Source of the DNA: an uncultured Pseudomonadota bacterium
GTDB lineage: Bacteria > Pseudomonadota > Gammaproteobacteria > Burkholderiales > SG8-39
NCBI GenBank assembly: GCA_903909415.1
Contig: CAIVVS010000307.1
Location: 10,282 to 74,281, forward strand
DNA: 64,000 bases
Direction of reading: 5' to 3'
Shown: in pieces, positions 29,199 through 45,134 of the stretch
How positions within the stretch are numbered: position 1 is the first letter of the stretch
Layout: each line of letters begins with the position of its first letter
Made by a program: the position numbers and the translations under genes
The notes under the pieces: generated by a model
The model's input: the letters and a program-made list of their open reading frames with translations, nothing else
Databases searched by the model: none
What the model was told of the DNA's origin: nothing

Positions 29199-29214
29199 GG
29201 GCAGCCGGGCGGCA

Positions 29215-30138
29215 TCAAACCGGCCGGGTGCCCGTCAGCTTGCAGTCGATCACCGCATCGCGCAGCAGGTCGATCGCCGGCGTTCGGGTGAAGGAGCGGC
29301 GCCAGACCAGGGCCACGCGCCGTGTCGGCTGCGGCTTCTCGAAGGGCCGGTAGGCGAGCAGGGACTTCCTGTTCACTTCCTTCGGCACGGAGCTGGCCGG
29401 CATCACCGTCAGGCCCAGGCCCGAGGCCACCATCTGGCGGATGGTCTCCAGCGAGCTGCCCTCGAAGGTGCGCTGGATGCCCTCGGACCCCGAGCCGAAG
29501 CGCGACAGGTCCGGGCAGAACTGCAGCACCTGGTCGCGGAAGCAATGGCCCGCGCCCAGCAGCAGCATCTGCTCCTTCTGCAGGTCGTCCACCGGGATGC
29601 TGCGGCGCTTCTCCCAGGCGTGGCCGGCGGGCAGCGCGACCACGAAGCCCTCGTCGTACAGCGGGGCCACCTCGACCGCCTGCGCCTCGAAGGGCAGGGC
29701 CAGGATGGCGCAGTCGATGTCGCCCTGGCGCAGCATCTCGGCCAGGCGCACGGTGTAGTTCTCCTCGATCACCAGCGGCATGCGCGGCGCGCGCTTGTGG
29801 AGGATGGGAACGAGTGTGGGCAGCAGGTAGGGCCCGATGGTGTAGATCACGCCCACGCGCAGCGGGCCGGCCAGTGGGTCCTTGCCTTGGCGCGCCAGGT
29901 CGCGCACCAGGTCGGCCTGTTCGAGCACGCGTTGCGCCTGCGCGACGATGCGCTCGCCTATGGGTGTGAGGCTGATCTCGCTGCCGCCGCGCTCGAAGAT
30001 CAGCAGGCCGAGTTCTTCTTCCAGCTTTTTCACGCCCACCGACAGCGTCGGCTGGGACACGAAGCAGGCGGCCGCGGCGCGCGCGAAATGCCGCTCGCGG
30101 GCGACGGCGACGATGTACTTGAGTTCGGTCAGGGTCAT
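29215..30138 (-). CDS. oxyR: Hydrogen-peroxide-sensing LysR-type regulator OxyR
   Basis: A 307-residue LysR-family protein. An N-terminal winged HTH (1-62) is followed by a periplasmic-binding-like sensor domain. GAGHCFRDQVLQFCP places Cys199 and Cys208 at the same positions as the redox pair of E. coli OxyR, which forms a disulfide with peroxide. GSSLETIRQMVASGLG is also typical. It activates catalase and peroxidase genes, none of which is adjacent. A link to oxygenase by-products is plausible but not shown. Confidence 0.92.
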   Translation of the reverse strand: MTLTELKYIVAVARERHFARAAAACFVSQPTLSVGVKKLEEELGLLIFERGGSEISLTPIGERIVAQAQRVLEQADLVRDLARQGKDPLAGPLRVGVIYTIGPYLLPTLVPILHKRAPRMPLVIEENYTVRLAEMLRQGDIDCAILALPFEAQAVEVAPLYDEGFVVALPAGHAWEKRRSIPVDDLQKEQMLLLGAGHCFRDQVLQFCPDLSRFGSGSEGIQRTFEGSSLETIRQMVASGLGLTVMPASSVPKEVNRKSLLAYRPFEKPQPTRRVALVWRRSFTRTPAIDLLRDAVIDCKLTGTRPV

Positions 30139-30237
30139 GGCGGCGGGTCGATGAGGCTAGGGTGAGTTGATCGAACCTTAGCATCGCTGCCCGGCGGCCG
30201 ATAGGCAATCTCTCTCGGGCGCCCGGCCTCTCCCGGC

Positions 30238-31905
30238 TCAGGGGAAACCCAGCACCCGGTCCACCAATCCGGCGGCGTCCACCGGCAGCGCATCGCCACG
30301 CCACGCGATGTGGTGGTCCGGCCGCACCAGCACCAGGTCGCGGCCATAGAGTTCGCGCGGCTCCGCGCCCGGCAGGTCCAGCACGGCGAGCGGCATGCCG
30401 CGCGCGGTCGCCGCGGCTTCCAGCGCGGCCGTCGGGGCGCTGCTGCCGCCCAGGCGCAGCAGCGTGAAGTCGCGTCCGAAGCGGTCGTGGATGGAGACGT
30501 CGTCGCCCACCCAGCAATGCGGCGCGCGCGAGCCCGGCACGCCGTTGGGCACGTAGCGGCTCCATTCGTCCGGCGGCGGCGGCGTGCCGTCGCCCATCAC
30601 CACCGGTGATCCGGCATAGCTCACGCCCAGGTGGATGCCGGGGATGTCGAACTCGGTGTGGCAGTGGGCGCGCAGCTTCTCGCCCAGTTGCGCGCGTGCG
30701 GCCGCGCCCGAGGGCGTGTCGGCTTCCAGGTCCTCGGTCACCGGCATCAGGCCGATCGAGTCCGCCATGGCGCGCGCGAACGCGGTGTTGCGGTGGCCGA
30801 TGGGCTTCCTCTCGGCCTCGAAGCTGGCGAGCAGGGTCCGCCCGCCCCAGCCCTGGCAGGCTGCGGCGAGCTTCCAGCCGAGGTTGGCCGCGTCATCCAC
30901 CGCGGTGTTGTAGCCCTGGCCGCCGGTGGGCGTGAACAGGTGGGCCGCGTCGCCGAGGATGAACACGCGCTGCGCGTCGTCCCCATAGCGCTCCGCCACC
31001 AGCGCGAAGCCGGCGGTCCATTCGGCGGTGCCGAACAGCTCGATGCCGAACTCCCGGCCGGTGGCGCGCATCAGCGCCTCGCGCCCGATGCGGTCGGCCT
31101 CGGCCGTGCCGCCGGTCTGGCCGTGCGGCAGCTGGGTATGGAACACGAACAGGCCTTCTCCGTCGATGGAGCAGATCAGGCCGCGGTCGCTGCGGTTCAC
31201 CGCCCAGTACTGCCAGGCGCGCGGCGCGGGGCAGGCCTGCGCCCACTCTTTCGAGCGGTAATACACCGCGAGCATCTTGCCGCCCATGAACTCGCGCTGC
31301 GCGCCGGACTCGCCGCCGTAGCGGATGCCCAGCTGCGTCCTCACCAGCGAGCGCGGCCCGTCGGCGCCGACCAGGTAGGACGCCTCCAGCGTCTCGCGCC
31401 GGCCGCTGGCCACATGCTCGGCCTCGGCGGTGACGCCGCTCGCATGCACCGTGTAGGACAGCAGCTTCCAGCCGAAGCGCGAATCCACCGAGGGCCACTT
31501 TTCCGCATGGCGGCGCAGCACGCCCTCGATGTACATCTGCTGGGTACGGTGCAGCGGCTCGGGCGTGGGCCAGCGCGCGTTCGGCTGCTGGCGGGTGCGC
31601 TCGACCTCGCGCCGCGACGGCCAGGCCACGCGCGCCATCTCGTGCGCGCCGTAGCGGGTGAAGTAGGCGATGTCCTGCGGGTGGTCCTCGGTCATGCCCA
31701 GCGCGCGGACCTCCGGCGCGAACCCGAGGCGCCGGTAGTGCTCCATGGTGCGCGAGGTGGTGGCGTTGGCCTTGGGGAAGTCGGGCGAGTCCGGATCGTC
31801 CTCCAGCAGGATGCAGGGCACGCCGCGCCGTCCGAGTTCCATCGCCACGATCAGGCCGGCGACGCCGCCGCCCGCGATCAACACGCCAGTCCTGTTGCCG
31901 TCCAT
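30238..31905 (-). CDS. FAD-dependent aromatic monooxygenase (PheA/TfdB family)
   Basis: A 555-residue flavoprotein hydroxylase. The dinucleotide-binding GGGVAGL is at 12-18. The second FAD segment GDAAHLFTPTGGQGYN is in the middle. A C-terminal thioredoxin-like domain is consistent with the length. This family hydroxylates phenolic rings using NAD(P)H and O2. It is divergent from the PqqU-like receptor, with only 57 bases between the two starts. The exact substrate is not deducible. Confidence 0.87.
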   Translation of the reverse strand: MDGNRTGVLIAGGGVAGLIVAMELGRRGVPCILLEDDPDSPDFPKANATTSRTMEHYRRLGFAPEVRALGMTEDHPQDIAYFTRYGAHEMARVAWPSRREVERTRQQPNARWPTPEPLHRTQQMYIEGVLRRHAEKWPSVDSRFGWKLLSYTVHASGVTAEAEHVASGRRETLEASYLVGADGPRSLVRTQLGIRYGGESGAQREFMGGKMLAVYYRSKEWAQACPAPRAWQYWAVNRSDRGLICSIDGEGLFVFHTQLPHGQTGGTAEADRIGREALMRATGREFGIELFGTAEWTAGFALVAERYGDDAQRVFILGDAAHLFTPTGGQGYNTAVDDAANLGWKLAAACQGWGGRTLLASFEAERKPIGHRNTAFARAMADSIGLMPVTEDLEADTPSGAAARAQLGEKLRAHCHTEFDIPGIHLGVSYAGSPVVMGDGTPPPPDEWSRYVPNGVPGSRAPHCWVGDDVSIHDRFGRDFTLLRLGGSSAPTAALEAAATARGMPLAVLDLPGAEPRELYGRDLVLVRPDHHIAWRGDALPVDAAGLVDRVLGFP

Positions 31906-31962: not shown

Positions 31963-34152
31963 ATGCGTGCCGGGAGGAGTTCATCGGTGTCACGTCGCAC
32001 GCATGCATCTGCAGTACCCCTGTCGCTCGCGCTGGTCGCGGGCCTGGCCGCGGGGGTGGGCGACGCCCGCGCGCAGACAGCGTCGCCACCGGCAGCGCAA
32101 CCCGCGCCCCAGGCCGCCGCGCCCAAACCCGGCGACGACACCGTGGTGGTGACCGCGACGCGGCGGGACCAGCCCAGCCTGCTGCTGCCCGCCGGGGTGG
32201 ACCGGCTGTTCGGCGAGGAGATCCGCTTCGGCCGCCCGCAGGTGAACCTGTCGGAGTCCATCGGCCGCGTGCCCGGCATCGTGGTGCAGAACCGCCAGAA
32301 CTACGCGCAGGACCTGCAGGTGCATTCGCGCGGCTTCGGTTCGCGCTCGACCTTCGGCATACGCGGCCTGCGCCTGTACCAGGACGGCATCCCGGCCAGC
32401 ATGCCGGACGGCCAGGGCCAGGCCTCCAGCTTCGACCTGGGTTCGGCGCAGCGCATCGAGGTGCTGCGCGGCGCGCCCGCGGCGCTTTACGGCAACAGCG
32501 CCGGCGGCGTGATCAACGTGATCACGGAGGACGGCGCGGCCGTGCCCGAGGCGCGCGCGGACTTCTGGGCCGGCAGCTTCGGCACGCGCCGCACGCTGCT
32601 GAAGGTGGGCGGCGAGTCCGGCCCGCTTAACGTCACCGCCAGCGGTGGGGACTTCATCACCAAGGGCTGGCGCGAGCACAGCTCGGCGCGGCGCCAGCAG
32701 TTCAACGCGAAGCTGCGCTACGCGCTCGCCGAGGGCACCTCGGCGACGCTGCTGCTGAATTCGGTGAACCAGCCCGAGACCCAGGACGCGCTCGGCCTGT
32801 CGCGGGCCCAGCTGGACGCCAACCCGCGCGGCGTGGACCCGAGCGCCAATACCTTCAACACCCGCAAGAGCCTGGGCCAGGACCAGGCCGGCCTGTCGCT
32901 CACCCATGCCCTGTCCGGCGGCGGCACCGTGGTGGCCTCGGCCCATGGCGGGGTGCGCAACGTGCGCCAGTACCTCGGCATCCCGGTGGCCACGCAGCTC
33001 GGCGCCACGCATTCCGGCGGCGTGGTGGACCTGGGCCGCGAATTCGGCGGCGCGGGCCTGCGCCTGTCGCAGCCGATGTCCGTGTTCGGCAGGGACTCCA
33101 CGCTCACCGCGGGCCTGGAGTACGAGACGCAGAAGGAACGCCGCACCGGCTATGTCAACAACAACGGCGTGCAGGGCGCGTTGAAGCGCAACGAGGACGA
33201 CGCGGTCGGATCGCTCGGCGGCTACGGGCAGGTGGAAGTGCAGCTCGCGCCGAAGTGGATCGCCACCGCCGGCGGGCGCATGAGCCGGGTGCAGTTCAAG
33301 TCCAGCGACTACTACGTGGCCGCGGGCAATGGCGACGACAGCGGCCGGCGCGTGTTCTCCGCGTTCACGCCCACCGCCGGCCTGCTGTACCGAGCCACGC
33401 CGGACGTGAGCGTGTACGCGAACACCGGGCGCTCGTTCGAGACCCCGACCTTCACCGAACTCGCCTACCGGCTGGGCGGCACCGGCCTGAACTTCGCGCT
33501 CATGCCGGCGCGCAGCAACCAGACCGAGGCCGGCGTGAAGGCGCGCCTTGCCGAGGGCGTGCGGGTGAACGCGGCGCTGTTCGACATCGCCAGCCGCGAC
33601 GAGATCGTCACCGAGAGCAGCGCAGGCGGGCGCGCCACCTTCAAGAACGCGGGACGCACCTCGCGGCGTGGCGCGGAGTTCTCGCTGAACGCCGCGCTGG
33701 CGAAGGACCTGGACGCCTACCTCGCCTGGACCTGGGTGGATGCGCGTTTCCGCGAGGCCTTTTCCACGGTGCGCGGCACGCCGGCGGTGCCGGTGACGGT
33801 GGGTGCGGGCAACCGCATCCCGGGCATCGCGCGCGCCAACCTGTATGCCGAGCTGCGCTGGCGGCATGCGCCCAGCGGCTTCTCCGCCACGCTGGAAATG
33901 CAGCGCAAGGAAAAGGTCATGGTCAGCGACGACAACAGTGACTTCGCCGCCGGCTACACCGTGGCCAACCTGAGCCTCGGCCTGACCCAGCGCGGGCGCG
34001 GCTGGAGCGTGAGCGAGTTCCTGCGCGCCGACAACCTCGCCGGCACGCGCTATGTCGGCTCGGTGATCGTCAACGACGCCAACCTGCGTTTCTTCGAGCC
34101 GGCCCCCGGGCGCAGCCTGATGGCGGGCGTGCAGGCGACGCTCAGTTTCTGA
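31963..34152 (+). CDS. pqqU: TonB-dependent outer-membrane receptor, PqqU/YncD-like
   Basis: A 729-residue receptor with a signal peptide (ending near ARAQT), a TonB-box-like TVVVTA near 60, plug and 22-strand barrel. Long stretches match my memory of E. coli YncD, recently shown to import pyrroloquinoline quinone. Examples are NLSESIGRVPGI, VQNRQNYAQDLQ, RGFGSRSTFGIRG, DGIPASMPDGQGQ, RSFETPT and YVGSVIVND near the end. It heads a plus-strand set with cytochrome b561, a YncE-like protein and a PQQ alcohol dehydrogenase, which strengthens the PQQ-uptake call. The symbol is by homology. Confidence 0.85.
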   Translation: MRAGRSSSVSRRTHASAVPLSLALVAGLAAGVGDARAQTASPPAAQPAPQAAAPKPGDDTVVVTATRRDQPSLLLPAGVDRLFGEEIRFGRPQVNLSESIGRVPGIVVQNRQNYAQDLQVHSRGFGSRSTFGIRGLRLYQDGIPASMPDGQGQASSFDLGSAQRIEVLRGAPAALYGNSAGGVINVITEDGAAVPEARADFWAGSFGTRRTLLKVGGESGPLNVTASGGDFITKGWREHSSARRQQFNAKLRYALAEGTSATLLLNSVNQPETQDALGLSRAQLDANPRGVDPSANTFNTRKSLGQDQAGLSLTHALSGGGTVVASAHGGVRNVRQYLGIPVATQLGATHSGGVVDLGREFGGAGLRLSQPMSVFGRDSTLTAGLEYETQKERRTGYVNNNGVQGALKRNEDDAVGSLGGYGQVEVQLAPKWIATAGGRMSRVQFKSSDYYVAAGNGDDSGRRVFSAFTPTAGLLYRATPDVSVYANTGRSFETPTFTELAYRLGGTGLNFALMPARSNQTEAGVKARLAEGVRVNAALFDIASRDEIVTESSAGGRATFKNAGRTSRRGAEFSLNAALAKDLDAYLAWTWVDARFREAFSTVRGTPAVPVTVGAGNRIPGIARANLYAELRWRHAPSGFSATLEMQRKEKVMVSDDNSDFAAGYTVANLSLGLTQRGRGWSVSEFLRADNLAGTRYVGSVIVNDANLRFFEPAPGRSLMAGVQATLSF

Positions 34153-34267
34153 TCGGGCTTCGCGGGCCATGATCCGGCACCCGGACAGGCGGACCGCCTG
34201 ATCTGAGACAATGCGCGCCGCACTGCGCGCCGGACCGGGCGCGACCACGGGGGCAAGGGGAGGCACG

Positions 34268-34843
34268 GTGGGTGAGCAGAATCAATCTGGCGTGGGCCGC
34301 TACGGCGGCGTCGCGGTGGCGCTGCACTGGATCGTCGCGCTGGGCGTGTTCGCGCAGTTCGCGCTCGGCTGGTGGATGATCGGCCTGCCGAACACGCCGC
34401 CGGGCTACCAGGCCTACTGGTACAACGTGCACAAGTCCATCGGCATCACGCTGGGCCTGTTCGTGGTGCTGCGCGTGGCGTGGCGCCTCACCCATCCCGC
34501 GCCCGAGCTGCCCGGCAGCGTGGCCCTGTGGCAGCGGCGCGCGGCGCGCACCAGCCACTTCCTGCTCTATGCCTGCATGCTGGTGATGCCGATATCCGGC
34601 TTCCTCGGTTCGTCCTTCACCAAGTACCCGATCAAGTTCTGGGGCATGACACTGCCGAGGCTGCTCGATCCCTCGCCCGCGCTCAAGGACCTGTGCAGCA
34701 ACGTGCACTACGTGACCGTGTGCCTGTTCATGCTGCTGGTGGCCATCCACATGGCCGCGGCCCTCAAGCACCTGTTCGCGGGCGACGGTGTGTTCCGCCG
34801 CATGCTGCCTGCCCGCGCCGTCCCGGGAGTGGATAAAATATGA
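34268..34843 (+). CDS. Cytochrome b561-family membrane protein
   Basis: A 191-residue protein with four transmembrane helices. His20 (ALHW), His55 (NVHKS), His147 (NVHY) and His161 (AIHM) are placed as ligands for two b haems. The GTG at 34268 follows AGGGGAGG and is preferred to an upstream ATG at 34211. It should pass electrons between quinol and a periplasmic partner. Its stop overlaps the next start (ATGA). Position between the PqqU-like receptor and the propeller gene suggests a part in quinoprotein electron transfer. Confidence 0.85.
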   Translation: MGEQNQSGVGRYGGVAVALHWIVALGVFAQFALGWWMIGLPNTPPGYQAYWYNVHKSIGITLGLFVVLRVAWRLTHPAPELPGSVALWQRRAARTSHFLLYACMLVMPISGFLGSSFTKYPIKFWGMTLPRLLDPSPALKDLCSNVHYVTVCLFMLLVAIHMAAALKHLFAGDGVFRRMLPARAVPGVDKI

Positions 34844-35796
34844 ATATAATCAGTCCGTTATCGTATTTTGCGGCATTTTTCGCCGGCTTTGCCGTCAGTG
34901 CGGTCAGCTTCGCCGGCCCGATCGCCTATGTGCCCAACGAGCATTCCGGCACGCTGTCGCTGATCGACACCGACACCGATGCGGTGGTGGGCGAGATCCG
35001 CACCGGCGGCAAGCCGCGCGGCATCGTGGTCAGCGCCGACGGCAAGCGCCTGTACGTGAGCGACCAGTCCACCAACGCGTTGCTGGTTGTGGACATCGCC
35101 GCACGCGCCGTCAGCAGCCGCGTGGAACTGGGCGAGTCGCCCGAGGGCGTGGGCATCTCGGCCGACGGGCGCTGGGTGGCGGCCGCGAGCGAGGTGTCCA
35201 ACGGCGTGTCCATCATCGATGCCGCGACCAATGCCAAGGTCGCCACCATCAAGACCCGCGGCAAGAACCCGGAGCACGCGGTGTTCAGCCCGGACGGCAA
35301 GTGGCTGTACGTCAGCGCCGAGGACTCGGACACCGTGGACGTGATCGACATGGCAAAACGCGAGCAGGTGGCCGAGGTCAAGGTCGCGCGCCGGCCGCGC
35401 GGCATCGCCTTCAGCCCGGACGGCAAGCGCGCCTGGGTGGCCTGCGAGATGGACAGCATGGTGTTTTCCATCGCCGTGCCCGAGCACCGCGTGGTCGCCT
35501 CGTTCAAGGGCGGCGAGTTCGCCAACGGCGTGGCAATGCGCCCGGACGGCGAGCGCGTATTCGTGTCCAACGGCCGCGCCGCCTCGGTGTCGGTGATCGA
35601 CACCCGCGAGGCGCGCATCATCGACACCATCGCGGTCGGCCAGCGCCCCTGGAACATGGCGCTCACGCCCGATGGGAAGAAGCTCTATGTCGCCAACGGG
35701 CGCTCGGGCACGGTGTCGGTGATCGACGCGCAGGCCAGCCGCAAGCTGCGCGACATCCCGGTCGGCGAGCTGCCCTGGGGCGTGGTGATCCGCTAG
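34840..35796 (+). CDS. YncE-like periplasmic beta-propeller (YVTN repeat) protein
   Basis: A 318-residue secreted protein with a signal peptide to about residue 25 (VSFAG). Seven or so repeats follow, each carrying a SADGKRLYV- or SPDGKWLYV-type strand. The pattern matches the PQQ-catabolism-associated propeller family. In E. coli, yncE neighbours yncD/pqqU, and the same pairing is seen here. It may bind or scaffold a periplasmic partner rather than act as an enzyme. It overlaps the b561 gene by ATGA. Confidence 0.82.
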   Translation: MNIISPLSYFAAFFAGFAVSAVSFAGPIAYVPNEHSGTLSLIDTDTDAVVGEIRTGGKPRGIVVSADGKRLYVSDQSTNALLVVDIAARAVSSRVELGESPEGVGISADGRWVAAASEVSNGVSIIDAATNAKVATIKTRGKNPEHAVFSPDGKWLYVSAEDSDTVDVIDMAKREQVAEVKVARRPRGIAFSPDGKRAWVACEMDSMVFSIAVPEHRVVASFKGGEFANGVAMRPDGERVFVSNGRAASVSVIDTREARIIDTIAVGQRPWNMALTPDGKKLYVANGRSGTVSVIDAQASRKLRDIPVGELPWGVVIR

Positions 35797-35815
35797 CCGC
35801 CGCGCGCGCGACGCC

Positions 35816-36733
35816 ATGCCGTCCAGCCGCGCCGCGCGCCGCGATGCCCTGCTGCTGGCGGTGCTGACGCCAGCCTTCTTCGGGCTGGCGGTCACGCTGG
35901 AACTGTCCGAGGACGTGGCCCGCTTCGCCGGCGGCCACGAGCGCTGGCAGCTGGACGAGCTGCCGCTTACCCTGCTGGTGCTGTCGCTGGGACTGGCCTG
36001 GTTCGGCTGGCGGCGCCTGCGCGAGCTGCGCGTTGCCGAGGCCGCTTCCTCCGAGCTGTCGCGTCGCCTGATCACGCTGCAGGAAGAGGAGCGCCGCGGC
36101 ATCGCGCGCGAACTGCATGACGAGCTCGGCCAGTACTTCAGCGCGATCAAGGTGGATGCGATTTCCATCGGGCGTGCGCTGGGTCCGGCATCGGACGCGG
36201 ATGCGCCGCGCCGCAGCGCGCAGGCCATCGTCAAGGCGGCCGACCACATGCATGCCATCGCGCGCGGCATGCTGCAGCGCCTGCGTCCCGCCGGGCTGGA
36301 TGAGCTCGGCCTGGCGGCCTGCCTGCAGGACCTGGCCGAGACCTGGGAGCAGCGCCACGGCGTGGAGTGCGCCTTCCTGCCGTCGGGCGAACTGGGCGAG
36401 CTGCCGGAGGCGGTTGCCATCACTGCCTACCGCATCGTGCAGGAGTGCCTGAGCAACGTCGCTAGGCACGCCGGAGCGACGCGCGCCACCGTGCGGCTGG
36501 CGCGCGGCGCCGGTGCGCTGGTGCTGTCGGTGGAAGACGACGGCCGCGGCCTGCGCGCCGGTGCGGGGATGGGACTGGGCCTGCCGGGAATGCGCGAGCG
36601 CGCCGCGGCGCTGGGCGGTTCGCTGGTGGTGGATGCCTCGCCCACCGGGGGCGTGCGTGTGGGCGCGTCACTGCCCTTGCTCGGAGCGGCGTCTGCATTG
36701 GCGTCCGGGGCAGCGTCCGGGGCGGCGCCATGA
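35816..36733 (+). CDS. Membrane sensor histidine kinase (NarX/HisKA_3 type)
   Basis: A 305-residue kinase. Two hydrophobic segments (about 12-30 and 50-65) flank a short periplasmic loop of some 20 residues. A helical linker, the phosphorylated His101 (ARELHDELGQ) and an ATPase domain with NVARHA and DDGRGL follow. It should phosphorylate the response regulator whose ATG overlaps its stop. Context suggests control of the quinoprotein genes, comparable to ExaDE-type systems. The last codons carry a 12-base tandem repeat. Confidence 0.87.
   Translation: MPSSRAARRDALLLAVLTPAFFGLAVTLELSEDVARFAGGHERWQLDELPLTLLVLSLGLAWFGWRRLRELRVAEAASSELSRRLITLQEEERRGIARELHDELGQYFSAIKVDAISIGRALGPASDADAPRRSAQAIVKAADHMHAIARGMLQRLRPAGLDELGLAACLQDLAETWEQRHGVECAFLPSGELGELPEAVAITAYRIVQECLSNVARHAGATRATVRLARGAGALVLSVEDDGRGLRAGAGMGLGLPGMRERAAALGGSLVVDASPTGGVRVGASLPLLGAASALASGAASGAAP
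36689..36724 (+). repeat. 12-base tandem repeat at the 3' end of the kinase gene
   Basis: GCGTCCGGGGCA (36701-36712) and GCGTCCGGGGCG (36713-36724) follow a degenerate first unit (36689-36700). They encode an Ala/Ser/Gly tail just before the stop. Confidence 0.6.
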
Positions 36734-37374
36734 TCCGCGTGCTGCTGGTGGACGACCATGCGGTGGTGCGCGCCGGCTACCGCCGCTACCTGGAGCAGGC
36801 CGAGGGCATCAGCGTGCTGGCCGAGGCCTCCAGCGCCGACGAAGGCTATGCGGCCTGGAGCCGCGAAGCGCCCGACGTCGGCGTGGTGGACATCTCCATG
36901 CCTGGCGCGAGCGGCGTGCAGCTGGTCCGGCGCATCGTCGCGCGCGATGCGGGCGCGAGGCTGCTGGCCTTCAGCATGCATGCCGAGGCGCTGTTCGTGT
37001 CGCAGGCCATGGCCGCGGGCGCGAGCGGCTACATCACCAAGAACAGCGCGGGCGAAACCCTGATCGAGGCGGTGCGGCAGGTGCATGCCGGGCGGCGTTT
37101 CTTCAGCCCGGACGTGCAGCCGGTGGCGCTCAGCCACGCCTCGTCCACCGGCTTGCCGGCCGGGCCGGATGCGCTCACGCCCAAGGAGTTCGAGGTGTTC
37201 CGCATGCTGGCGCAGGGCACGACGCTGGCCGAAATTGCCACCGCGCTCAACCTGAGCCAGAAGACCGTGGCCAACTACCAGAGCCTGATCAAGGAAAAGC
37301 TGGGCGTGGCCACCACCGCCGCGCTGATCCACCTCGCGCTGCGCCACGGGGTGATCCGCCAGCCGGGCGGCTGA
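36730..37374 (+). CDS. NarL/FixJ-family response regulator
   Basis: A 214-residue regulator. The receiver domain has Asp8/Asp9, phospho-acceptor Asp54 (VVDISMPG) and Lys104 (ITKNSAG). The C-terminal LuxR-type HTH reads LTPKEFEVFRMLAQGTTLAEI. It overlaps the kinase by ATGA. It likely activates the downstream receptor and alcohol dehydrogenase genes, but no binding site was recognised. Confidence 0.9.
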   Translation: MIRVLLVDDHAVVRAGYRRYLEQAEGISVLAEASSADEGYAAWSREAPDVGVVDISMPGASGVQLVRRIVARDAGARLLAFSMHAEALFVSQAMAAGASGYITKNSAGETLIEAVRQVHAGRRFFSPDVQPVALSHASSTGLPAGPDALTPKEFEVFRMLAQGTTLAEIATALNLSQKTVANYQSLIKEKLGVATTAALIHLALRHGVIRQPGG

Positions 37375-37462
37375 GCCCGGCCTGCCGCGCGGGTCGGGAG
37401 TTTCTCCCGAGGCAGCACGCGAGCCGCTTGCTACAGTCCCCGCCCTTGGAGGGGGGGAGCAG

Positions 37463-40021
37463 GTGCGCAAGGCGGGTTCATCCATGTTCGCGGCACGCGG
37501 CGCTGTGGCGCTCGCGCTGCTGGCGGCTTGTCCCGTCCCTGCGCAAACGGCCGGGCAAGCCCCGGCGCGTTCGGCCGAGGACGAGAGCCGGCTGTTCACC
37601 GACCACCTGCCCGCGGTGCAGGTGATAGGCGTCACGCCGCTGCCCGGCCTCGCCGTGCCGCGCTCGCAGGTGCCGGCGGCGGTGCAATCGGGCACGGCCG
37701 AGGACATCGAGCGCAGCGGCGCGCGCGGCATCGCCGACTACCTGCAGCGCGGCTTCAACGGCGTGTTCGTGAACGAGCTGCAGGGCAACCCTTTCCAGCC
37801 GGACGTCAATTACCGCGGCTACACCGCCTCGCCGCTGCTGGGCACGCCGCAGGGCCTGTCACTCTACATGGACGGCGTGCGCCTGAACCAGCCGTTTGGG
37901 GACGTGGTCAGCTGGGACCTGATCCCGCGCGCGGCGATCGCCACGGTGTCGCTGCTGCCCGGGTCCAACCCGATGTACGGGCTGAACACGCTGGGCGGCG
38001 CGATCGCGATGCAGACCAAGGACGGGCTGCGCCATCCCGGCAGCTCGGCGCAGGCGAAGCTCGGTTCCTTCGGCCGGCGCAGCGCCGAGTTCGAGCATGG
38101 CGGCGCCAACGCGGCGGGCCTGGACTGGTACGTCACCGGTTCTGCCTTCGGCGAGGATGGCTGGCGCACCGCGTCCTCGAGCAAGCTGTCGCAGTGGTTC
38201 GGCAAGCTCGGCTGGAGCGGCGGCCCGACCCGGGCCTGGATGAGCTTTGCCTACGCCGACAGCCGGCTGAACGGAAACGGCCTGCAGGAGCAGCGCATGC
38301 TGGCGCTGGACCGCGCCAGCGTCTACACGCAGCCCGACACCACCGAGAACCGCTCCGGCTTCCTGACGCTCTCCCTGACCCATTCGCTCGACGAGGACAC
38401 GCGCCTGTCGGGCAATGCCTGGTACCGGCGCATCGACACGCGCACGTTCAACGCCGACATCAACGAGGGCGCGCTGGACCAGTCGGTGTACCAGCCGAAC
38501 GCGGCCGAGCGCGCCGCGCTCACCGCCGCGGGCTACACCGGCTTCCCGGCGGCGGGCGAGAGCGCCGCCAACACGCCGTTCCCGTTCTGGCGCTGCATCG
38601 CGAACGTGCTGCGCCGTGACGAGCCGGCAGAAAAGTGCAGCGGCCTGATCAACCGCACGCGCAGCAGCCAGTCGCAGTACGGCGCCTCGGGCCAAGTCGC
38701 GCACGCGGGACGGATCGCGGGCCTGCGCCACCAGCTGACCGCGGGCGCGGCGCTGGACCTGGCGCGCACCCGTTTCACGCAGGGCACGCAACTCGGCTAC
38801 CTCAACCCGGACCGCACCGTGACCCCGGTGAATGCCTTCGGCGACGGCGTCAACGGCGGCAACGTGGACGGCGCGCCCTACGACACGCGCGTGGACCTGG
38901 ACGCCGCCTCGCGCACCTGGAGCGTGTTCGCCACCGACACCATGGCGCTGTCCGAAGCCTGGCACCTGACCGCCTCCGGGCGCTACAACCACACCAGCGT
39001 GCGCAACCGCGACGGCATCAACCCCGGCGGCGGGGCGCGCTCGCTGGACGGCGACCACCGCTTCATGCGCTTCAATCCGGCGATCGGACTGAACTTCAGT
39101 CCCGACCTCGCCACCAGCATCTGGGCCGGCTGGAACCAGGGCAGCCGCGCGCCGACCGCGATCGAGCTCGGCTGCGCCAATCCGGCCCAGCCCTGCCGCC
39201 TGCCCAACTCCATGGCCGGCGACCCGCCGCTCAAGCAGGTGATCGCGCGCACCCTGGAGGTTGGCGCGCGCGGTGGTGCCAGCGGCGGGCTGCAGTGGAA
39301 TGCCAGCGCCTTCCGCGCCGAGAACCATGACGACATCCTGTTCGTCGCCTCGCCCAACAACGCCCAGTTCGGCTATTTCCGCAACGTCGGCATGACGCGG
39401 CGCGAGGGACTGGAACTCGGCCTGCGCGCCGCGGCGCGCGCGCTCAGCGGCGGCGTGCAGTACAGCCTGGTCCACGCCACCTACCAGACCGAGGAGCTGG
39501 TCAACGGCAATGGCAACAGCACCAACGCCTCCGGCCGCGGCCTGGAGGGCAACATCCGCATCCGCCCGGGCGACCGCATCCCGCTGGTGCCGCTGCAACA
39601 GCTCAAGCTGCACGCTGACTGGCAGGCGGCGCCGGGTGTGTCGCTGGGCGCGAATGTCGTGGCGGTGGGCAGTTCCTACGCGCGCGGCAACGAGAACAAC
39701 CTGCACAGCCCCGACGGCAGCAGGTACCTCGGGCCGGGCAAGTCGCCGGGCTACGCGGTGCTCAACCTGTCGGCGCAGTTCCGGGTCGAACCGGCGCTGC
39801 GCATCACGCTGCAGGTGGACAACCTGTTCGACCGGCGCTACGGCACTGCAGCACAGCTTGGGCCGACCGGCTTCGACGCGAGCGGCAACTTCACCGCCCG
39901 GCCGTTTCCTGCCATCGGCACGGCCTTTCCGGTGCAGCAGGCGACGTTCTTCGCGCCGGGCGCGCCGCGCGCCTTGTGGGTCGGGTTGCGCTACAGCTTC
40001 GACGCACCCCGCGGCGGTTGA
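37463..40021 (+). CDS. TonB-dependent outer-membrane receptor (second in the quinoprotein locus)
   Basis: An 852-residue receptor starting with GTG at 37463 after a G-rich ribosome site. The signal peptide ends near PVPAQT, followed by a TonB-box-like AVQVIG and plug motifs such as YRGYTASPLLGTPQGL and GGAIAMQTK. The barrel ends in FDAPRGG, without a typical terminal aromatic. It is quite unlike the PqqU-type receptor upstream. Its place just before a probable lanthanide enzyme gene raises the possibility of a metal-chelate substrate, which the sequence does not prove. Confidence 0.85.
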   Translation: MRKAGSSMFAARGAVALALLAACPVPAQTAGQAPARSAEDESRLFTDHLPAVQVIGVTPLPGLAVPRSQVPAAVQSGTAEDIERSGARGIADYLQRGFNGVFVNELQGNPFQPDVNYRGYTASPLLGTPQGLSLYMDGVRLNQPFGDVVSWDLIPRAAIATVSLLPGSNPMYGLNTLGGAIAMQTKDGLRHPGSSAQAKLGSFGRRSAEFEHGGANAAGLDWYVTGSAFGEDGWRTASSSKLSQWFGKLGWSGGPTRAWMSFAYADSRLNGNGLQEQRMLALDRASVYTQPDTTENRSGFLTLSLTHSLDEDTRLSGNAWYRRIDTRTFNADINEGALDQSVYQPNAAERAALTAAGYTGFPAAGESAANTPFPFWRCIANVLRRDEPAEKCSGLINRTRSSQSQYGASGQVAHAGRIAGLRHQLTAGAALDLARTRFTQGTQLGYLNPDRTVTPVNAFGDGVNGGNVDGAPYDTRVDLDAASRTWSVFATDTMALSEAWHLTASGRYNHTSVRNRDGINPGGGARSLDGDHRFMRFNPAIGLNFSPDLATSIWAGWNQGSRAPTAIELGCANPAQPCRLPNSMAGDPPLKQVIARTLEVGARGGASGGLQWNASAFRAENHDDILFVASPNNAQFGYFRNVGMTRREGLELGLRAAARALSGGVQYSLVHATYQTEELVNGNGNSTNASGRGLEGNIRIRPGDRIPLVPLQQLKLHADWQAAPGVSLGANVVAVGSSYARGNENNLHSPDGSRYLGPGKSPGYAVLNLSAQFRVEPALRITLQVDNLFDRRYGTAAQLGPTGFDASGNFTARPFPAIGTAFPVQQATFFAPGAPRALWVGLRYSFDAPRGG

Positions 40022-40180
40022 GCAGGCGCCCACCGGCCGCCGTTGCCGCGCCGGCGCGGTGTTTCCACCCCGGCAGATGGCTCCCGCTGGCGTGGTTTGG
40101 TAGTAGCATCCTCCCCGGGGAACGCTCGTCAGGGCGGCACGCGACCATACAGGCGCGTGGAAAATAACAAGGAGGGGAGC

Positions 40181-41875
40181 ATGAAGAACATCATCATTTC
40201 GGCCGCTGTGGCCGCTGCCGCGGCATTGGTGCCCGCGACACAGGTGCTGGCCCAGTCGGCCCAGGACCTTCAGAACGACCACAAGACCAACGGCGACGTT
40301 CTGGTCTACGGCATGGGCTACGAGGCCCAGCGCTACAGCACGCTGAGCAAGATCAACAAGGCCAACGTCAAGCGCCTGGTGCCCAAGTGGTCGTATTCGA
40401 TCACCGACAACCGGGGCGCCGAGGCCTTCCCGGTCATCAAGGACGGGGTGATCTACACCACCGCGCACAATGCCACCGTGGCCGTGGATGCCATGACCGG
40501 CAAGCAGGTCTGGCGCGTGAACCACGACTACCCGCCGGAGACACTGCGTGCGGTCTGCTGCGGCATCGTCAACCGCGGCGTCGCCATGTACGAAGGCAAG
40601 ATCATCCGCTCGCTGCTGGACAACCAGGTCATCGCGCTCGACGCGAAGACCGGCAAGGAAATCTGGCGGACCGCCTCACCCGCGCCCGCGACGGCCGCCA
40701 ACGGCTACGCCATGACCGGCGCGCCGCTGATCGCCAACGGCACGGTGGTGGTCGGCGTGGCCGGCGCGGAATACGCGCACCGCGGCTTCATCGAGGGCTA
40801 CGACGTCAACACCGGCCGCCACCTCTGGCGCCACTGGAACACCGCCGTGCCCGGCGAGAAGGGCGGCGAAACCTGGCCCGGCGACACCGCCATGGTCGGC
40901 GGCGGCAGCTCCTGGGTGACCGGCGCGTACGACCCGGAACTGGACCTGGTGTACTGGGGCACGGGCAACCCCTCGCCGTGGAACGCGCGCGGCCGCAAGG
41001 GTGACAACCTGTACACCAACTCGATCATCGCGCTGCGTCCCAAGACCGGCGAGCGGGTCTGGTACTACCAGCACACGCCGGGCGACCCGTTCGACTACGA
41101 CGGCGTGGCCCAGCCGGTGCTGGCCACCATCAAGGTGGACGGCAAGCCGCGCAAGGTGCTGATGCAGGCGCCGCGCAACGGCTTCCTGTACGTGCTGGAC
41201 CGGGCCGACGGCAAGGTCCTGGCGGCCAACGCATTCGAGAAGGTGAACTGGGCCGACGGCGTGGACCTGGCCACCGGCCGCCCGAAGGTGAACGCGGTGT
41301 TCCAGGGCGCGCTGGACGGCAAGAAGGTCGAGGTCTGGCCATCGGTCACCGGTGGCACGAACTGGCAGCACATGTCCTTCGACCCCAAGGCCGGCATGGC
41401 GTACATCAACACCATCCACATCGGCATGACCTACGAGGCGCCGGATCCGGAGAACTACAAGCCCGGCCAGCCCTCCGGTCCGGGGTCGGTCAAGCGCACC
41501 ACGGTCACCGACAATCCGAACGTGCGTGGCTTCCTCAAGGCGATCAACCCGATGACCGGCAAGGTCAAGTGGGAAGTGCCCTACAAGAGCCCGAACTTCT
41601 CGTCGACCCTGGTGACCGCCGGCGGCATCGTGTTCACCGGCGTGATGACCGGCGAGTTCGAGGCGCGTGATGCCGCCACTGGCAAGCTGCTGTGGAGCTT
41701 CCAGACCCCGTCGGGCATCCTCGGCCAGCCGGTGACCTGGGAGAAGGACGGCAAGCAGTACGTGACCATCATGAGCGGCATCGGCGGCGTGTACGCGCTG
41801 CGTGCCGGCGACCCGAACCTGGTGAACGTGCCCGCCGGCGCGTCGCTCTGGACCTTCGGGCTGTTCGACAAGTAA
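40181..41875 (+). CDS. PQQ-dependent alcohol dehydrogenase, lanthanide-type signature
   Basis: A 564-residue periplasmic quinoprotein. GGAGGGG (40171-40177) precedes the ATG, and the signal peptide ends at VLAQS. The eight-bladed propeller contains the vicinal Cys126-Cys127 disulfide ring that packs on PQQ. Metal ligands are Glu197 (GAEYAHRG), Asn263 (WGTGNPSPW) and catalytic Asp305. Asp307 follows in FDYDG; this extra aspartate is the mark of lanthanide-dependent XoxF/ExaF/PedH enzymes, where calcium enzymes have Ala or Ser. It oxidises an alcohol or aldehyde and passes electrons to the cytochrome c at 42362. Confidence 0.9.
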   Translation: MKNIIISAAVAAAAALVPATQVLAQSAQDLQNDHKTNGDVLVYGMGYEAQRYSTLSKINKANVKRLVPKWSYSITDNRGAEAFPVIKDGVIYTTAHNATVAVDAMTGKQVWRVNHDYPPETLRAVCCGIVNRGVAMYEGKIIRSLLDNQVIALDAKTGKEIWRTASPAPATAANGYAMTGAPLIANGTVVVGVAGAEYAHRGFIEGYDVNTGRHLWRHWNTAVPGEKGGETWPGDTAMVGGGSSWVTGAYDPELDLVYWGTGNPSPWNARGRKGDNLYTNSIIALRPKTGERVWYYQHTPGDPFDYDGVAQPVLATIKVDGKPRKVLMQAPRNGFLYVLDRADGKVLAANAFEKVNWADGVDLATGRPKVNAVFQGALDGKKVEVWPSVTGGTNWQHMSFDPKAGMAYINTIHIGMTYEAPDPENYKPGQPSGPGSVKRTTVTDNPNVRGFLKAINPMTGKVKWEVPYKSPNFSSTLVTAGGIVFTGVMTGEFEARDAATGKLLWSFQTPSGILGQPVTWEKDGKQYVTIMSGIGGVYALRAGDPNLVNVPAGASLWTFGLFDK

Positions 41876-41897
41876 GCTGCGACTCTGCAAGCGCCCA

Positions 41898-41928
41898 CCG
41901 GGCCCGGCGGTTCCACCGCCGGGCCCGG
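41898..41928. terminator. Strong hairpin after the alcohol dehydrogenase gene
   Basis: A 13-base perfect GC stem (41898-41910 with 41916-41928) encloses TTCCA. It starts 23 bases past the dehydrogenase stop. Only two T residues follow, so it may stabilise the mRNA end or attenuate rather than fully terminate. Confidence 0.55.
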
Positions 41929-41950
41929 TTCGCATCAGGCCAGGAACACC

Positions 41951-42256
41951 ATGCACCTTCCAAAATCCGTTCTTGCCGCGTTGATGGTTGCCGCGACCGT
42001 CGCCGCGGCCGCCCTGCCGTCGGGCCATGCCTCAGCCCAGTCCTGCGACTTCGCGCCGGTGAAGAAGGAGATCGACACCGTCCTCGACCAGGACAAGGAT
42101 CGCGGCGAACGCTTCCGCAAGCGCGTCGCCGATGGCGATGACTCGATGAAGGTGCTGACCCAGCTCGCGCCCGCAGAGCTGCGCGCCATGATCGACAACT
42201 GCCGCTGTTTCGCGGCCGAATACCTCGCCAAGCGCGGCTATCCGCCGGCTCATTGA
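41951..42256 (+). CDS. Small secreted protein of unknown function in the quinoprotein locus
   Basis: A 101-residue protein. The ATG is preceded by CAGGAA. Residues 1-30 form a signal peptide ending SAQ. The mature part is short, charged and helical, with Cys32 and a CRC motif (Cys84, Cys86). I recognise no family. Its position between the dehydrogenase and its cytochrome suggests a periplasmic accessory or small subunit. Disulfide bonding of the cysteines is likely. Confidence 0.7.
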   Translation: MHLPKSVLAALMVAATVAAAALPSGHASAQSCDFAPVKKEIDTVLDQDKDRGERFRKRVADGDDSMKVLTQLAPAELRAMIDNCRCFAAEYLAKRGYPPAH

Positions 42257-42321
42257 ATACGGCCGACTGAGCCCGGCCCGCCGAACCGGTGATCGAACTG
42301 GGACCCGCGCCGGACCGGCCA

Positions 42322-42349
42322 GCCCACGAACCCGCAAACCCACGAACCG
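42322..42349 (+). repeat. Imperfect direct repeat ahead of the cytochrome c gene
   Basis: The decamer CCCACGAACC occurs at 42323-42332 and again at about 42339-42348. It lies in the gap between the small secreted protein and cytochrome c genes. Confidence 0.4.
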
Positions 42350-42361
42350 ACTGGAATCGAC

Positions 42362-42673
42362 GTGCGAGCAACCTTGACTGCAATGCTGCTGGCTGCGGCC
42401 GGATTCGCGTCCCCCGCCGCCGCACAGGACCAGAAGAAAATCGACGCCGGCGAGCGCGTCTACAACAACTACTGCTTCACCTGCCACGGCGAGAACCTGG
42501 TCAATACCGGCCAGACCTTCGACTTGCGCCGGCTGCGCGCGGACGAACGCCAGCGCTTCGACAACTCGGTGCGCAACGGCAAGAACCAGATGCCGCCGTG
42601 GAAGGACGTGCTTTCCGGCGAGCAGATCGATAACCTGTGGAGTTACGTCCGCGCAAACAGCACCGCGAAGTAG
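42362..42673 (+). CDS. Secreted c-type cytochrome, single haem
   Basis: A 103-residue protein from GTG 42362. A signal peptide ends near PAAAQ. The haem motif CFTCH gives Cys38, Cys41 and His42, and Met77 in QMPPW is the likely axial methionine. It is class I, of the kind that accepts electrons from quinoprotein alcohol dehydrogenases. The ribosome site (GGAA) is weak. Confidence 0.88.
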   Translation: MRATLTAMLLAAAGFASPAAAQDQKKIDAGERVYNNYCFTCHGENLVNTGQTFDLRRLRADERQRFDNSVRNGKNQMPPWKDVLSGEQIDNLWSYVRANSTAK

Positions 42674-42757: not shown

Positions 42758-43777
42758 ATGAAAATTGACATCTACAACCATGTGATGCCGGTTCGTTACC
42801 TCGAGATGATGAAGCTGCACTCGAAGGACGCCGGCATCGTGAAGCGCATGTCGTCGCTGCGCATGCTCTGGGACATCGAGGCGCGCGTCGAGATGCTGCG
42901 CAGCAAGTTCCCCGACGTGCGCCAGGTGCTGACCCTGTCCCTGCCCTCCCCCGAGCTGGTCGGCGGTCCCGACCTGTCGCCGGAGCTGGCGCGCATCGCC
43001 AACGACGACATGGCCGCCATGGTCGCGAAGTGGCCCGACGTGTTCCCGGCCTTCATCGCCTCGCTGCCGATGAACAACATCCCGGCGGCGCTGGAGGAGA
43101 TGGACCGCGCCATCGACAAGCTCGGCGCGCGCGGCGTGCAGATCTGCACCAGCGTCAACGGCCGCGCGCTGGACGAGCCCGAGTACTTCCCGGTGTTCGA
43201 GCGCGTCACCAACAAGCACGACCTGCCGATCTTCATGCACCCGGCGCGTCCCGCGACGCGCGCCGACTACGCCAACGAGCCCAAGTCCAAGTACGAGATC
43301 TGGCAGGTGCTGGGCTGGCCGTTCGAGACCAGCGTGGCGATGTCGCGCATGGTGTTCTCCGGCTTCTTCGAGAAGCTGCCGAACATGCGCCTTATCACGC
43401 ACCATTGCGGCGCGATGATCCCGTTCCTGGCCGGCCGCGCCGAGACGCTCTGGGCGCAGCTGGGCGCACGCAGCGCCGACGAGAACTACGACGAGCTGCT
43501 GAAGAACATGAAGAAGGCGCCGATCGAGTACTTCAAGATGTTCTACGCCGACACGGTGCTGGGCGGCTCGTCCTCGGCGCTGCGCTGCGGCCTGGACTTC
43601 TTCGGCGCTGACAAGGTGGTGTTCGCCAGCGACTGCCCGTTCGACCCCGAGGGCGGCCCGATGTTCATCCGCGAGGGCGTGCGCTCGGTCGAGGACCTGA
43701 ACCTGTCCGAGGACGACAAGCGCAAGATCTACTTCGGCAACGCGCTCAAGCTGCTGAAGATGAAGGCGCCGCAGTAG
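42758..43777 (+). CDS. Amidohydrolase-2 (ACMSD-like) family protein
   Basis: A 339-residue TIM-barrel protein of the aminocarboxymuconate-semialdehyde/resorcylate decarboxylase group. It has the later metal or catalytic segments FMHPARP, THHCGAM and ASDCPF. The first motif, normally DxHxH, reads DIYNHVMP, so the first histidine is Tyr. Metal binding may differ from the prototype, or a neighbouring residue may stand in. It heads an operon with a NIPSNAP protein and a secreted esterase. A decarboxylase or hydrolase of an aromatic acid is likely. Confidence 0.8.
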   Translation: MKIDIYNHVMPVRYLEMMKLHSKDAGIVKRMSSLRMLWDIEARVEMLRSKFPDVRQVLTLSLPSPELVGGPDLSPELARIANDDMAAMVAKWPDVFPAFIASLPMNNIPAALEEMDRAIDKLGARGVQICTSVNGRALDEPEYFPVFERVTNKHDLPIFMHPARPATRADYANEPKSKYEIWQVLGWPFETSVAMSRMVFSGFFEKLPNMRLITHHCGAMIPFLAGRAETLWAQLGARSADENYDELLKNMKKAPIEYFKMFYADTVLGGSSSALRCGLDFFGADKVVFASDCPFDPEGGPMFIREGVRSVEDLNLSEDDKRKIYFGNALKLLKMKAPQ

Positions 43778-43806
43778 GCCCGCCACCACGCCAACCGGAG
43801 ATTGCC

Positions 43807-44133
43807 GTGATCTACGAACTGCGCACCTACGCCGCGACCCCGGGTCGCATGCCCGAGCTGCTCAAGCGCTTCGACACCATCACGCTGAAGATCTGGGAGC
43901 GCTTCGGCATCCGCCCGGTGGGCTTCTGGACCACGCTGATCGGCGAGTCCAACCAGACGCTGTACTACCTGCTCGCCTGGGAGAGCCTGGCCGAGCGCGA
44001 GCAGAAGTGGAACGCCTTCGCCGCCGATCCCGAGTGGATCGCCAGGCGCAACGAGACCGAGAAGAACGGGCCGCTGACGCAGTGGCTGAAGAACGAGATC
44101 CTCGCGCCCACCTCGTTCTCGGCGCTGAAATGA
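43807..44133 (+). CDS. NIPSNAP-family protein
   Basis: A 108-residue ferredoxin-like alpha/beta protein starting at GTG 43807. MIYELRTYAATPGRMPELLKRF and a central YYLLAWESLAERE are typical. NIPSNAP proteins often sit in degradation operons; their biochemical role is unclear. It overlaps the next gene by ATGA. Confidence 0.85.
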   Translation: MIYELRTYAATPGRMPELLKRFDTITLKIWERFGIRPVGFWTTLIGESNQTLYYLLAWESLAEREQKWNAFAADPEWIARRNETEKNGPLTQWLKNEILAPTSFSALK

Positions 44134-45098
44134 GGTCCGTTCGCAGCTTCGTCACCACGGCCGCACTGGCGCTCGTCGCCGGCACCGCGGGTGCTCAGGT
44201 CGCCAACCTGCCGGAGAACGTGCAGCAGCGCATGGCCGAGGTCGGCCCGGGCTGGGGTCGCGACATCGGCGGCAACATCCGCAAGATGCTGGAGGTGTAC
44301 ACGCCGCTGCTCGCCGCCGCGCCCAAGGACGGGGTGAACGTCGTTCGCGACGTGGCCTACGGTACTGATGCGCGCCAGCGGCTGGACCTGTTCGTTCCCG
44401 CCGGCAAGACCGGCGTCCCGGTAGTGGTCTTCATCCACGGCGGCGCCTACGTCGCGGGCGAGCGCAACATCAACGCCGAGGTCTACGGCAACGTGCCGTC
44501 CTGGTTCGCGCGCCAGGGCATGCTGGGCGTGAACGCGACCTACCGGCTCGCGCCCGCGGCCACCTGGCCGGCGGCGGCCGAGGACGTGGCCGGCATGGTG
44601 CGCTGGCTGAAGGCCAATGCGGCGGCCCACGGCGGCGACCCGCAGCGCATCTGGCTGATCGGGCATTCGGCGGGGGCGACGCACGTCGCGAGCCACGTGT
44701 TCATGAAGGACCTGCAGCCGGCGCAGGGCCACGGCGTGGCCGGCGTGGTCCTGATGAGCGGGCGCTACCAGTTCAACCCGAGCCCCGACGACCCGAACCT
44801 GAAGAACTTCCAGGCCTACTTCGGCGCCGACAGGGCGCGCTACCCGACGCAGTCGCCGATCAACCACGTGAAGTCCGCGAAGCCCTTGCCGGTGTACATC
44901 GTGGTGTCCGAGTACGACAACCCCGACCTGGACACGCAGGGCGCGCTGCTGCTGGCTGCACTGTGCGAGCGCGAGCGCGCCTGCCCGCGCTTCACCCGCA
45001 TGGAAAGGCACAACCACCTGTCCATGGTGTACCAGTTCAACACCCGCGACGAGGCGCTGGGCCGCGAGGTGCTGGAGTTCATGCGGCGCGGCCGCTGA
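44130..45098 (+). CDS. Secreted alpha/beta hydrolase (hormone-sensitive-lipase-like esterase)
   Basis: A 322-residue protein from ATG 44130, coupled to the NIPSNAP gene by ATGA. The signal peptide ends near GTAGAQ (about 23). HGG (103-105) forms the oxyanion hole and Ser180 (GHSAG) is the nucleophile. A DNPD acid segment and a His in RHNHLS complete the likely triad. It probably hydrolyses an ester or amide in the periplasm before uptake. The adjacent Bug gene runs convergently. Confidence 0.85.
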   Translation: MRSVRSFVTTAALALVAGTAGAQVANLPENVQQRMAEVGPGWGRDIGGNIRKMLEVYTPLLAAAPKDGVNVVRDVAYGTDARQRLDLFVPAGKTGVPVVVFIHGGAYVAGERNINAEVYGNVPSWFARQGMLGVNATYRLAPAATWPAAAEDVAGMVRWLKANAAAHGGDPQRIWLIGHSAGATHVASHVFMKDLQPAQGHGVAGVVLMSGRYQFNPSPDDPNLKNFQAYFGADRARYPTQSPINHVKSAKPLPVYIVVSEYDNPDLDTQGALLLAALCERERACPRFTRMERHNHLSMVYQFNTRDEALGREVLEFMRRGR

Positions 45099-45134
45099 GA
45101 GGCATCGCCCTGCGGCGATGCCTTCCCCGCGAAC

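Follow-up and report, generated by a model that had tools for sequence, protein, structure and literature searches.

Candidate acquisition of both PQQ and a trivalent metal for a predicted lanthanide-type alcohol dehydrogenase at a nine-gene locus of an uncultured Burkholderiales bacterium

We analysed a 64,000-nucleotide stretch of DNA, here called the window, from an uncultured Pseudomonadota bacterium (GTDB lineage Bacteria; Pseudomonadota; Gammaproteobacteria; Burkholderiales; SG8-39; GenBank assembly GCA_903909415.1, contig CAIVVS010000307.1, positions 10,282 to 74,281 of the forward strand). The subject is a locus of nine genes at 31963-42673 which encodes two TonB-dependent receptors, a sensor kinase with its response regulator, and a pyrroloquinoline quinone (PQQ) dependent alcohol dehydrogenase. 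Our tentative reading, to which we give not quite an even chance, is that this is a composite locus through which an exported PQQ alcohol dehydrogenase of the lanthanide type would obtain both cofactors that it needs, in a lineage mostly without PQQ synthesis. The metal would be trivalent and probably a lanthanide, with iron as the main rival; a lanthanide is favoured because the locus combines a LutH-like receptor with a lanthanide-type dehydrogenase. The gene content, the PqqU residues, the metal-site Asp, the relatedness of the second receptor (TBDR2), and the conserved repeat and kinase loop can be read from the sequence. A preliminary description of this DNA had listed nine plus-strand genes, and Pfam and NCBIfam profile matches bore out both the genes and their order. 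The features are as follows.

31963-34152, plus strand: PqqU-like TonB-dependent receptor, predicted PQQ importer (43% identity to E. coli PqqU/YncD; signature residues; NF041535 equivalog score 632 bits, missing the cut-off of 1200)
34211-34843, plus strand: cytochrome b561, membrane electron carrier (PF01292, 101.7 bits)
34840-35796, plus strand: YncE/PedA2-like periplasmic beta-propeller (TIGR03866, 225 bits over 299 residues, under the cut-off of 287.3; YncE model NF052280, 103 bits, under the cut-off of 400)
35816-36733, plus strand: two-helix HisKA_3 sensor kinase with a short acidic periplasmic loop, ELSEDVARFAGGHERWQLDELP (PF07730, PF02518)
36730-37374, plus strand: LuxR/NarL-type response regulator (PF00072, PF00196)
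37396-37408, no strand assigned: inverted repeat GGGAGTTTCTCCC, predicted response-regulator operator of TBDR2 (comparison with relatives)
37463-40021, plus strand: TBDR2, the second TonB-dependent receptor, LutH-like, predicted importer of a lanthanide or other trivalent metal (31% identity over 807 aa to a Methylobacterium nodulans receptor beside lanmodulin)
40181-41875, plus strand: PQQ-dependent alcohol dehydrogenase with the lanthanide-type Asp, FDYDG (TIGR03075, methanol/ethanol family, 595 bits, over the cut-off of 480)
41951-42256, plus strand: small secreted protein of 101 aa (no Pfam or NCBIfam match)
42362-42673, plus strand: cytochrome c, probable electron acceptor of the dehydrogenase (PF13442, 56.8 bits)

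The likely better starts are ATG 37484 for TBDR2 and ATG 40181 for the dehydrogenase. In the mechanism that we propose, PqqU would carry PQQ through the outer membrane, and a trivalent metal would enter by TBDR2, a lanthanide or its chelate being the likeliest cargo. The kinase would read periplasmic metal with its acidic loop, and the response regulator together with the inverted repeat at 37396 would set the level of TBDR2. The dehydrogenase would hand electrons to the cytochrome c, and b561 may connect to the quinone pool. We infer which metal is carried, which way the regulation runs, how the electrons travel, what the propeller does and that the host is a PQQ auxotroph.

The nearest relative found was a contig of an uncultured betaproteobacterium metagenome-assembled genome from Lake Erken (L001), in which all nine genes recur in unchanged order, flanked as in the window by a monooxygenase on the upstream side and an amidohydrolase on the downstream side. 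Identity to the window was 78% for the dehydrogenase, 76% for the propeller, 71% for b561, 70% for PqqU, 66% for the regulator, 63% for the cytochrome c, 55% for the small protein, 54% for the kinase and 40% for TBDR2. With the same order and flanks in this contig, the nine-gene layout is conserved and more than chance.

The receptor at 31963 could be aligned with E. coli PqqU over almost its full length, with 284 of 655 aligned residues identical. The PqqU signature consists of Y, F or W at position 99, R304 and R365 in E. coli numbering (PMC12124388). The window receptor has F131 at Y99, R332 at R304 and R394 at R365, which is the full signature, and in addition K302 at K274 and R557 at R536. 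This suggests that the receptor probably imports PQQ. Metal co-transport by way of a Glu at PqqU position 274 has been proposed (PMC12124388), an idea that is inapplicable here because the Lys is kept at that position. The YncD-YncE pairing that the preliminary description named for E. coli was confirmed in K-12, where pqqU (yncD) and yncE are divergent neighbours. The window thus resembles the E. coli system in full-length receptor homology, in the signature residues with K274 and R536, and in an adjoining yncE (PMC12124388); it differs in that the receptor scores below the equivalog cut-off and in that the locus adds a dehydrogenase, a second receptor and a kinase pair. One metagenome protein (P0039, 988 aa, one of 120 listed proteins) contains both a YncE-like propeller and a PqqU-like receptor; it is either a real fusion or two neighbouring genes read as one, and we set it aside as proof of a physical pair.

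TBDR2 has other relatives. Against PqqU it gave 25% identity and 70 bits (63 bits in a separate comparison, to be set against the M. extorquens match below), and the idea that both receptors are PQQ importers was rejected on this distance. Against solved structures there was a short weak match only, and the best NCBIfam class was a siderophore receptor, under cut-off at 135 of 223.5 bits. The match to the M. nodulans receptor, which is plasmid-encoded, gave 327 bits. The neighbours of that receptor are a regulator and an EF-hand protein, which NCBIfam classifies as lanmodulin (175.5 bits, cut-off 135), and it has close relatives throughout Methylobacterium; TBDR2 also matched one M. extorquens protein at 31% over 853 positions. 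TBDR2 is thus a full-length homolog of a receptor encoded beside lanmodulin, in a neighbourhood resembling the M. extorquens region with lutH and lanM (PMC7391723). The LutH likeness was judged on the receptor of this lutH-lanM-like neighbourhood in place of authentic LutH. This suggests that TBDR2 may import a trivalent metal, with a lanthanide or its chelate as the likeliest.

The metal site of the dehydrogenase points the same way. An Asp two residues past the catalytic Asp is said, after Keltjens in 2014, to mark lanthanide-type PQQ dehydrogenases. The window dehydrogenase has an Asp at this place (FDYDG), as does PedH (6zcv), and 1kv9 and 1yiq have Thr. The lanthanide-type Asp is also named in general terms in PMC10875860. 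By this residue the enzyme is predicted to be a lanthanide-type PQQ alcohol dehydrogenase. In loci that bear TBDR2 (the window and 17 genomes, some genomes being counted in several rows) all 32 dehydrogenase rows have the lanthanide-type Asp. Five dehydrogenases have Ala, Ser or Thr instead; no TBDR2 was visible in their loci, of which three span only about 4 kb, too short to show one.

We then consider the neighbourhoods of TBDR2 relatives (E up to 1e-70). Among genomes with a PqqU locus they were present in 31 of 79, that is 22 of 38 in one set and 9 of 41 in another; the 38 had been drawn from 80 PqqU loci (79 genomes) and chosen partly for neighbours of interest. The relative lay within 15 kb of PqqU in at least 17 of the 31, a lower bound owing to contig ends and to a second set in which PqqU was placed only by way of 10 kb flanks. 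Thirteen further dehydrogenase-bearing genomes of the family yielded TBDR2 in six, and in four of these it stood beside a dehydrogenase. In three genomes (G024, G013 and G017) TBDR2 was less than 20 kb from pqqE. Among plasmids there were 30 records with a TBDR2 relative, and in five of the eight neighbourhoods examined (H1, H3, H15, H18, H22) we found a PQQ dehydrogenase, pqq genes or lanmodulin. The plasmid relatives include one from Variovorax boronicumulans (54% identity) with a dehydrogenase, a propeller and pqqECD, one from Burkholderia multivorans with a dehydrogenase and pqqABCDE, one from Paraburkholderia largidicola with pqqBCDE and C1-oxidation genes, and one from Sphingobium with a dehydrogenase, PedF and a propeller; the relative on an Ideonella plasmid (H2) has the kinase pair only. 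As a separate observation, a protein of about 690-750 aa is encoded near TBDR2 in six genomes (L119, L121, L122, L124, L132 and L142); both of those tested, from L122 and L142, are sigma-54 activators, which is perhaps another way of regulating such loci.

The kinase has two membrane helices that enclose a 22-residue periplasmic loop. In nine receptor-linked kinases the loop residues E26, E29, E39, Q42, D44, E45, L46 and P47 are identical. The inverted repeat follows the regulator gene closely and stands ahead of TBDR2, and the same or a similar repeat precedes TBDR2 in L001, L134, L139, L140, L142 and L144. From these six and the window we derived the consensus GGGAAAAACTCCC, from which L144 is off by three bases. 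In 2.35 Mb of loci all ten matches with at most one mismatch (nine sites) lie less than 300 bp upstream of TBDR2, and they include three genomes outside the derivation of the consensus (G016, G143 and G147); when a second mismatch was tolerated, 12 of 30 rows were upstream of TBDR2. We also looked for the repeat before the PqqU and dehydrogenase genes, and only the 37396 site turned up in the window.

A model of the loop was searched in 80 of 92 genomes, the 12 dropped having no TBDR2 match. It recovered its own eight source genomes, two new strong matches (G063, G065) and one weak match (G031). In 399 genomes of the order 46 were positive, four of them already known, and of the 42 new ones the 26 best-scoring were read in loci of about 3 kb. 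The neighbour of the kinase was a TBDR2-family receptor in 17, a YncE-like protein (56-64%) in four, a weak YncE relative (26-28%) in three and neither in two. The repeat was present with at most one mismatch in 14 of these loci and with at most two in 20, and ten of the 14 sit between kinase and TBDR2. Since the 26 loci were found by the loop alone, the loop, the repeat and the receptor or propeller appear to belong together. Twenty loop-kinase loci with wider flanks held TBDR2 in 18, a YncE-like protein in 11, b561 in nine and a HAD protein in nine; the count of 18 is biased upward because five of the six omitted loci lack a TBDR2 neighbour; the fair figure is 17 of 26. A set of kinase, regulator, LutH-like receptor, YncE-like propeller, HAD type II protein and b561 keeps turning up in these loci (L208-L227) with no PQQ genes, and it is possible that this set is a metal-uptake module of its own. 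In the window the five genes from b561 through TBDR2 resemble a single module that other genomes of the order also have, with PqqU before it and the dehydrogenase, small protein and cytochrome c behind it.

Our data suggest that the kinase/regulator pair most likely controls TBDR2 and not PQQ uptake. VgrS and PmrB are sensor kinases in which an ExxE motif binds Fe3+ (PMC5231390), and PmrB has been re-aimed to lanthanides (PMC5744191). The window kinase shares with both an ExxE in the periplasmic sensor segment (PMC5231390, PMC5744191) and differs from them by its HisKA_3 class, its 22-residue loop and an extra E..QxDELP part. A more far-reaching proposal, which is possible though we consider it doubtful, is that the pair is a lanthanide-responsive two-component system of an undescribed kind. 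Its loop (ExxE..E..QxDELP) would bind Ln3+, and in many Burkholderiales-type genomes the system would use the GGGAAAAA(C/T)TCCC repeat to act on either a LutH-like receptor or a PedA2-like propeller; in the window, where PqqU stands with it, a single locus would then collect both parts of the Ln-PQQ cofactor.

The preliminary description saw no pqqA-E gene in view. This held for PqqB, C, D and E, for which Burkholderia queries gave nothing better than E 0.26 by tblastn in the 64-kb window; as a positive control the queries found B, C, D and E in L227 and C, D and E in L159. PqqA, at 24 aa, is too short to judge, and its tblastn outcome does not count. The preliminary description's broader statement, that PQQ biosynthesis is lacking, can be kept as a probable absence in the lineage, and PQQ auxotrophy of the host itself would be deduced from relatives. 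The one TIGR03075 dehydrogenase of the syntenic genome (G001) is that of this locus, and in the family of this genome the dehydrogenase was matched in 29 of 98 genomes. Twenty-two of the 29 were tested together for PqqC; of the other seven, one (G028) was tested separately and its PqqC was not over cut-off, and six had matches with E above 1e-7 only. In this betaproteobacterial family, rich in PQQ-dehydrogenase matches and with PqqC in one of 22 genomes, PQQ would be a shared good. Six genomes of 2.2-3.8 Mb without PqqC over cut-off had many dehydrogenase-matching stretches (17 in G127, 14 in G131, 12 in G128, 11 in G110, 11 in G129 and 10 in G130), some being pieces of one gene; these seem to be quinoprotein-rich lineages without PQQ synthesis.

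Several of our results weigh against a locus that gathers PQQ and a lanthanide. Among the 30 window genes scanned by Pfam there is no metal ATP-binding cassette (ABC) transporter. On the plasmids of Methylocalor and Caballeronia (H8, H9) we saw no PQQ or metal link near the TBDR2 relative. The lanthanide-type Asp is common also without TBDR2 (33 rows), so the Asp pattern agrees with a lanthanide link and is no proof of it. In the window alone the degenerate repeat is at chance level, with four one-mismatch matches against 4.3 expected, which makes the case for the repeat a comparative one. The loop kinase is present in only eight of 37 TBDR2-bearing genomes, all eight being source sequences of the model, and near the loop kinases of G063 and G065 there is no TBDR2-type receptor. 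The 20 wider loop-kinase loci contain a dehydrogenase in one, pqq genes in one and PqqU in none; from these counts the kinase-receptor module is usually apart from PQQ genes, and iron or another metal is possible. Finally, genome completeness is unstated, both for G001, where neither PqqE nor PqqC was over cut-off, and for the 22 family genomes, where PqqC was over cut-off in one (G112). This makes the absence of PqqC from a single genome weak evidence; the family-wide pattern is harder to explain by missing contigs.

In the main rival the genes from b561 to TBDR2 are an uptake module for iron or another metal that adjoins the PQQ genes by chance, with b561 as metal reductase. Cytochrome b561 is linked with iron reduction. 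It is present in nine of the 20 loci of a module mostly without PQQ genes, the best NCBIfam class of TBDR2 is a siderophore receptor, though under cut-off, and ExxE binds Fe3+ in VgrS and PmrB (PMC5231390). However, TBDR2 is related to a receptor beside lanmodulin and in 17 of 31 genomes lies within 15 kb of PqqU, and the propeller belongs to a family with ties to PQQ catabolism, of which PedA2 in the lanthanide transporter of P. putida is also a member (PMC12997753). We regard this explanation as credible but unlikely.

It is improbable that all nine genes form one PQQ system, as the preliminary description had proposed; in such a system the kinase would sense PQQ or the alcohol, and the second receptor would import PQQ or a related compound. 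Nine consecutive genes on one strand, in the same order in L001, are what such a system would look like; kinase/regulator pairs adjoin quinoprotein dehydrogenases in Pseudomonas (PMC12997753), and TBDR2 is near pqq genes in G013, G017, G024 and three plasmids. However, TBDR2 is LutH-like and far from PqqU, the window repeat stands only before TBDR2, and the loop-kinase loci mostly lack PQQ genes. Of the proposed sensing, import and use of PQQ, import is supported by the residue signature and use by the TIGR03075 match; service to PQQ by both receptors and the kinase pair was not upheld, and "self-contained" is too strong for a locus that looks like modules put together.

We also give little credence to a host that makes PQQ from genes elsewhere and uses PqqU merely to recapture it. 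PqqE was over cut-off in 10 and PqqC in nine of the 38 genomes with a PqqU locus, and G112 of the same family has PqqC; against this stand G001, with both proteins not over cut-off, and a family in which 21 of 22 genomes, of unstated completeness, show no PqqC over cut-off. That TBDR2 imports the alcohol substrate of the dehydrogenase, with the kinase sensing the same substrate, is very unlikely: catabolic genes surround the locus and TBDR2 adjoins dehydrogenases in several genomes, yet these belong to different subgroups (31-78% identity), TBDR2 often stands beside none, and the acidic loop suits a cation better.

The composite reading was compared with known systems. The ped cluster of Pseudomonas putida (PedH, PedF, PedA1A2BC, PedS2R2; PMC12997753) resembles the window in its lanthanide-type dehydrogenase, cytochrome c, TIGR03866 propeller and kinase pair; the window differs by two TonB receptors and a short-loop kinase, and in it an ABC transporter and a pqq operon were not seen. 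With the lut cluster of Methylorubrum extorquens (LutH, LanM; PMC7391723) the likeness is a full-length homology of TBDR2 to Methylobacterium receptors, of which one is encoded next to lanmodulin. The window differs in that this identity is only 31%, in its kinase pair, and in that neither lanmodulin nor a lut ABC transporter was found beside TBDR2 among the 30 genes scanned by Pfam. XoxF3 clusters of Acidobacteria and Gemmatimonadetes hold a dehydrogenase with cytochromes, YncE and TonB genes and small hypothetical proteins in one region, according to a figure legend in PMC10875860. Those clusters have oxidase and NRAMP genes, come from other phyla and, in the available text, are not described as PQQ plus metal uptake (PMC10875860).

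PQQ import without synthesis is already published, and is common: pqq synthesis genes are present in only 23% of PqqU genomes (PMC12124388). YncE and TonB genes near XoxF3 also appear in the legend cited above. A literature search, with most subscription papers outside its scope, turned up nothing on PqqU with a LutH-like receptor, nor on the loop kinase with its repeat. As judged by sequence, the new part is a second receptor that is LutH-like and not PqqU-like, and the loop kinase with its repeat. In this locus the receptor, the sensor loop and the predicted operator each lend themselves to direct testing, and the locus would link metal uptake with PQQ scavenging.

The small secreted protein at 41951-42256 matched no family in the Pfam and NCBIfam scans, and as a methanol dehydrogenase small subunit it was rejected, with no Pfam match at 0.01. 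It is one of three such proteins in the database, itself included, and its counterparts adjoin the dehydrogenase in L001 and L104. Catabolic genes flank the locus on both sides, at 16114-31905 and 42758-52765. They encode a flavin adenine dinucleotide (FAD) monooxygenase, a thiamine pyrophosphate (TPP) enzyme, an amidohydrolase, luciferase-like and FAH proteins, and TctC and DctP binding proteins, and they may hint at the origin of the alcohol.

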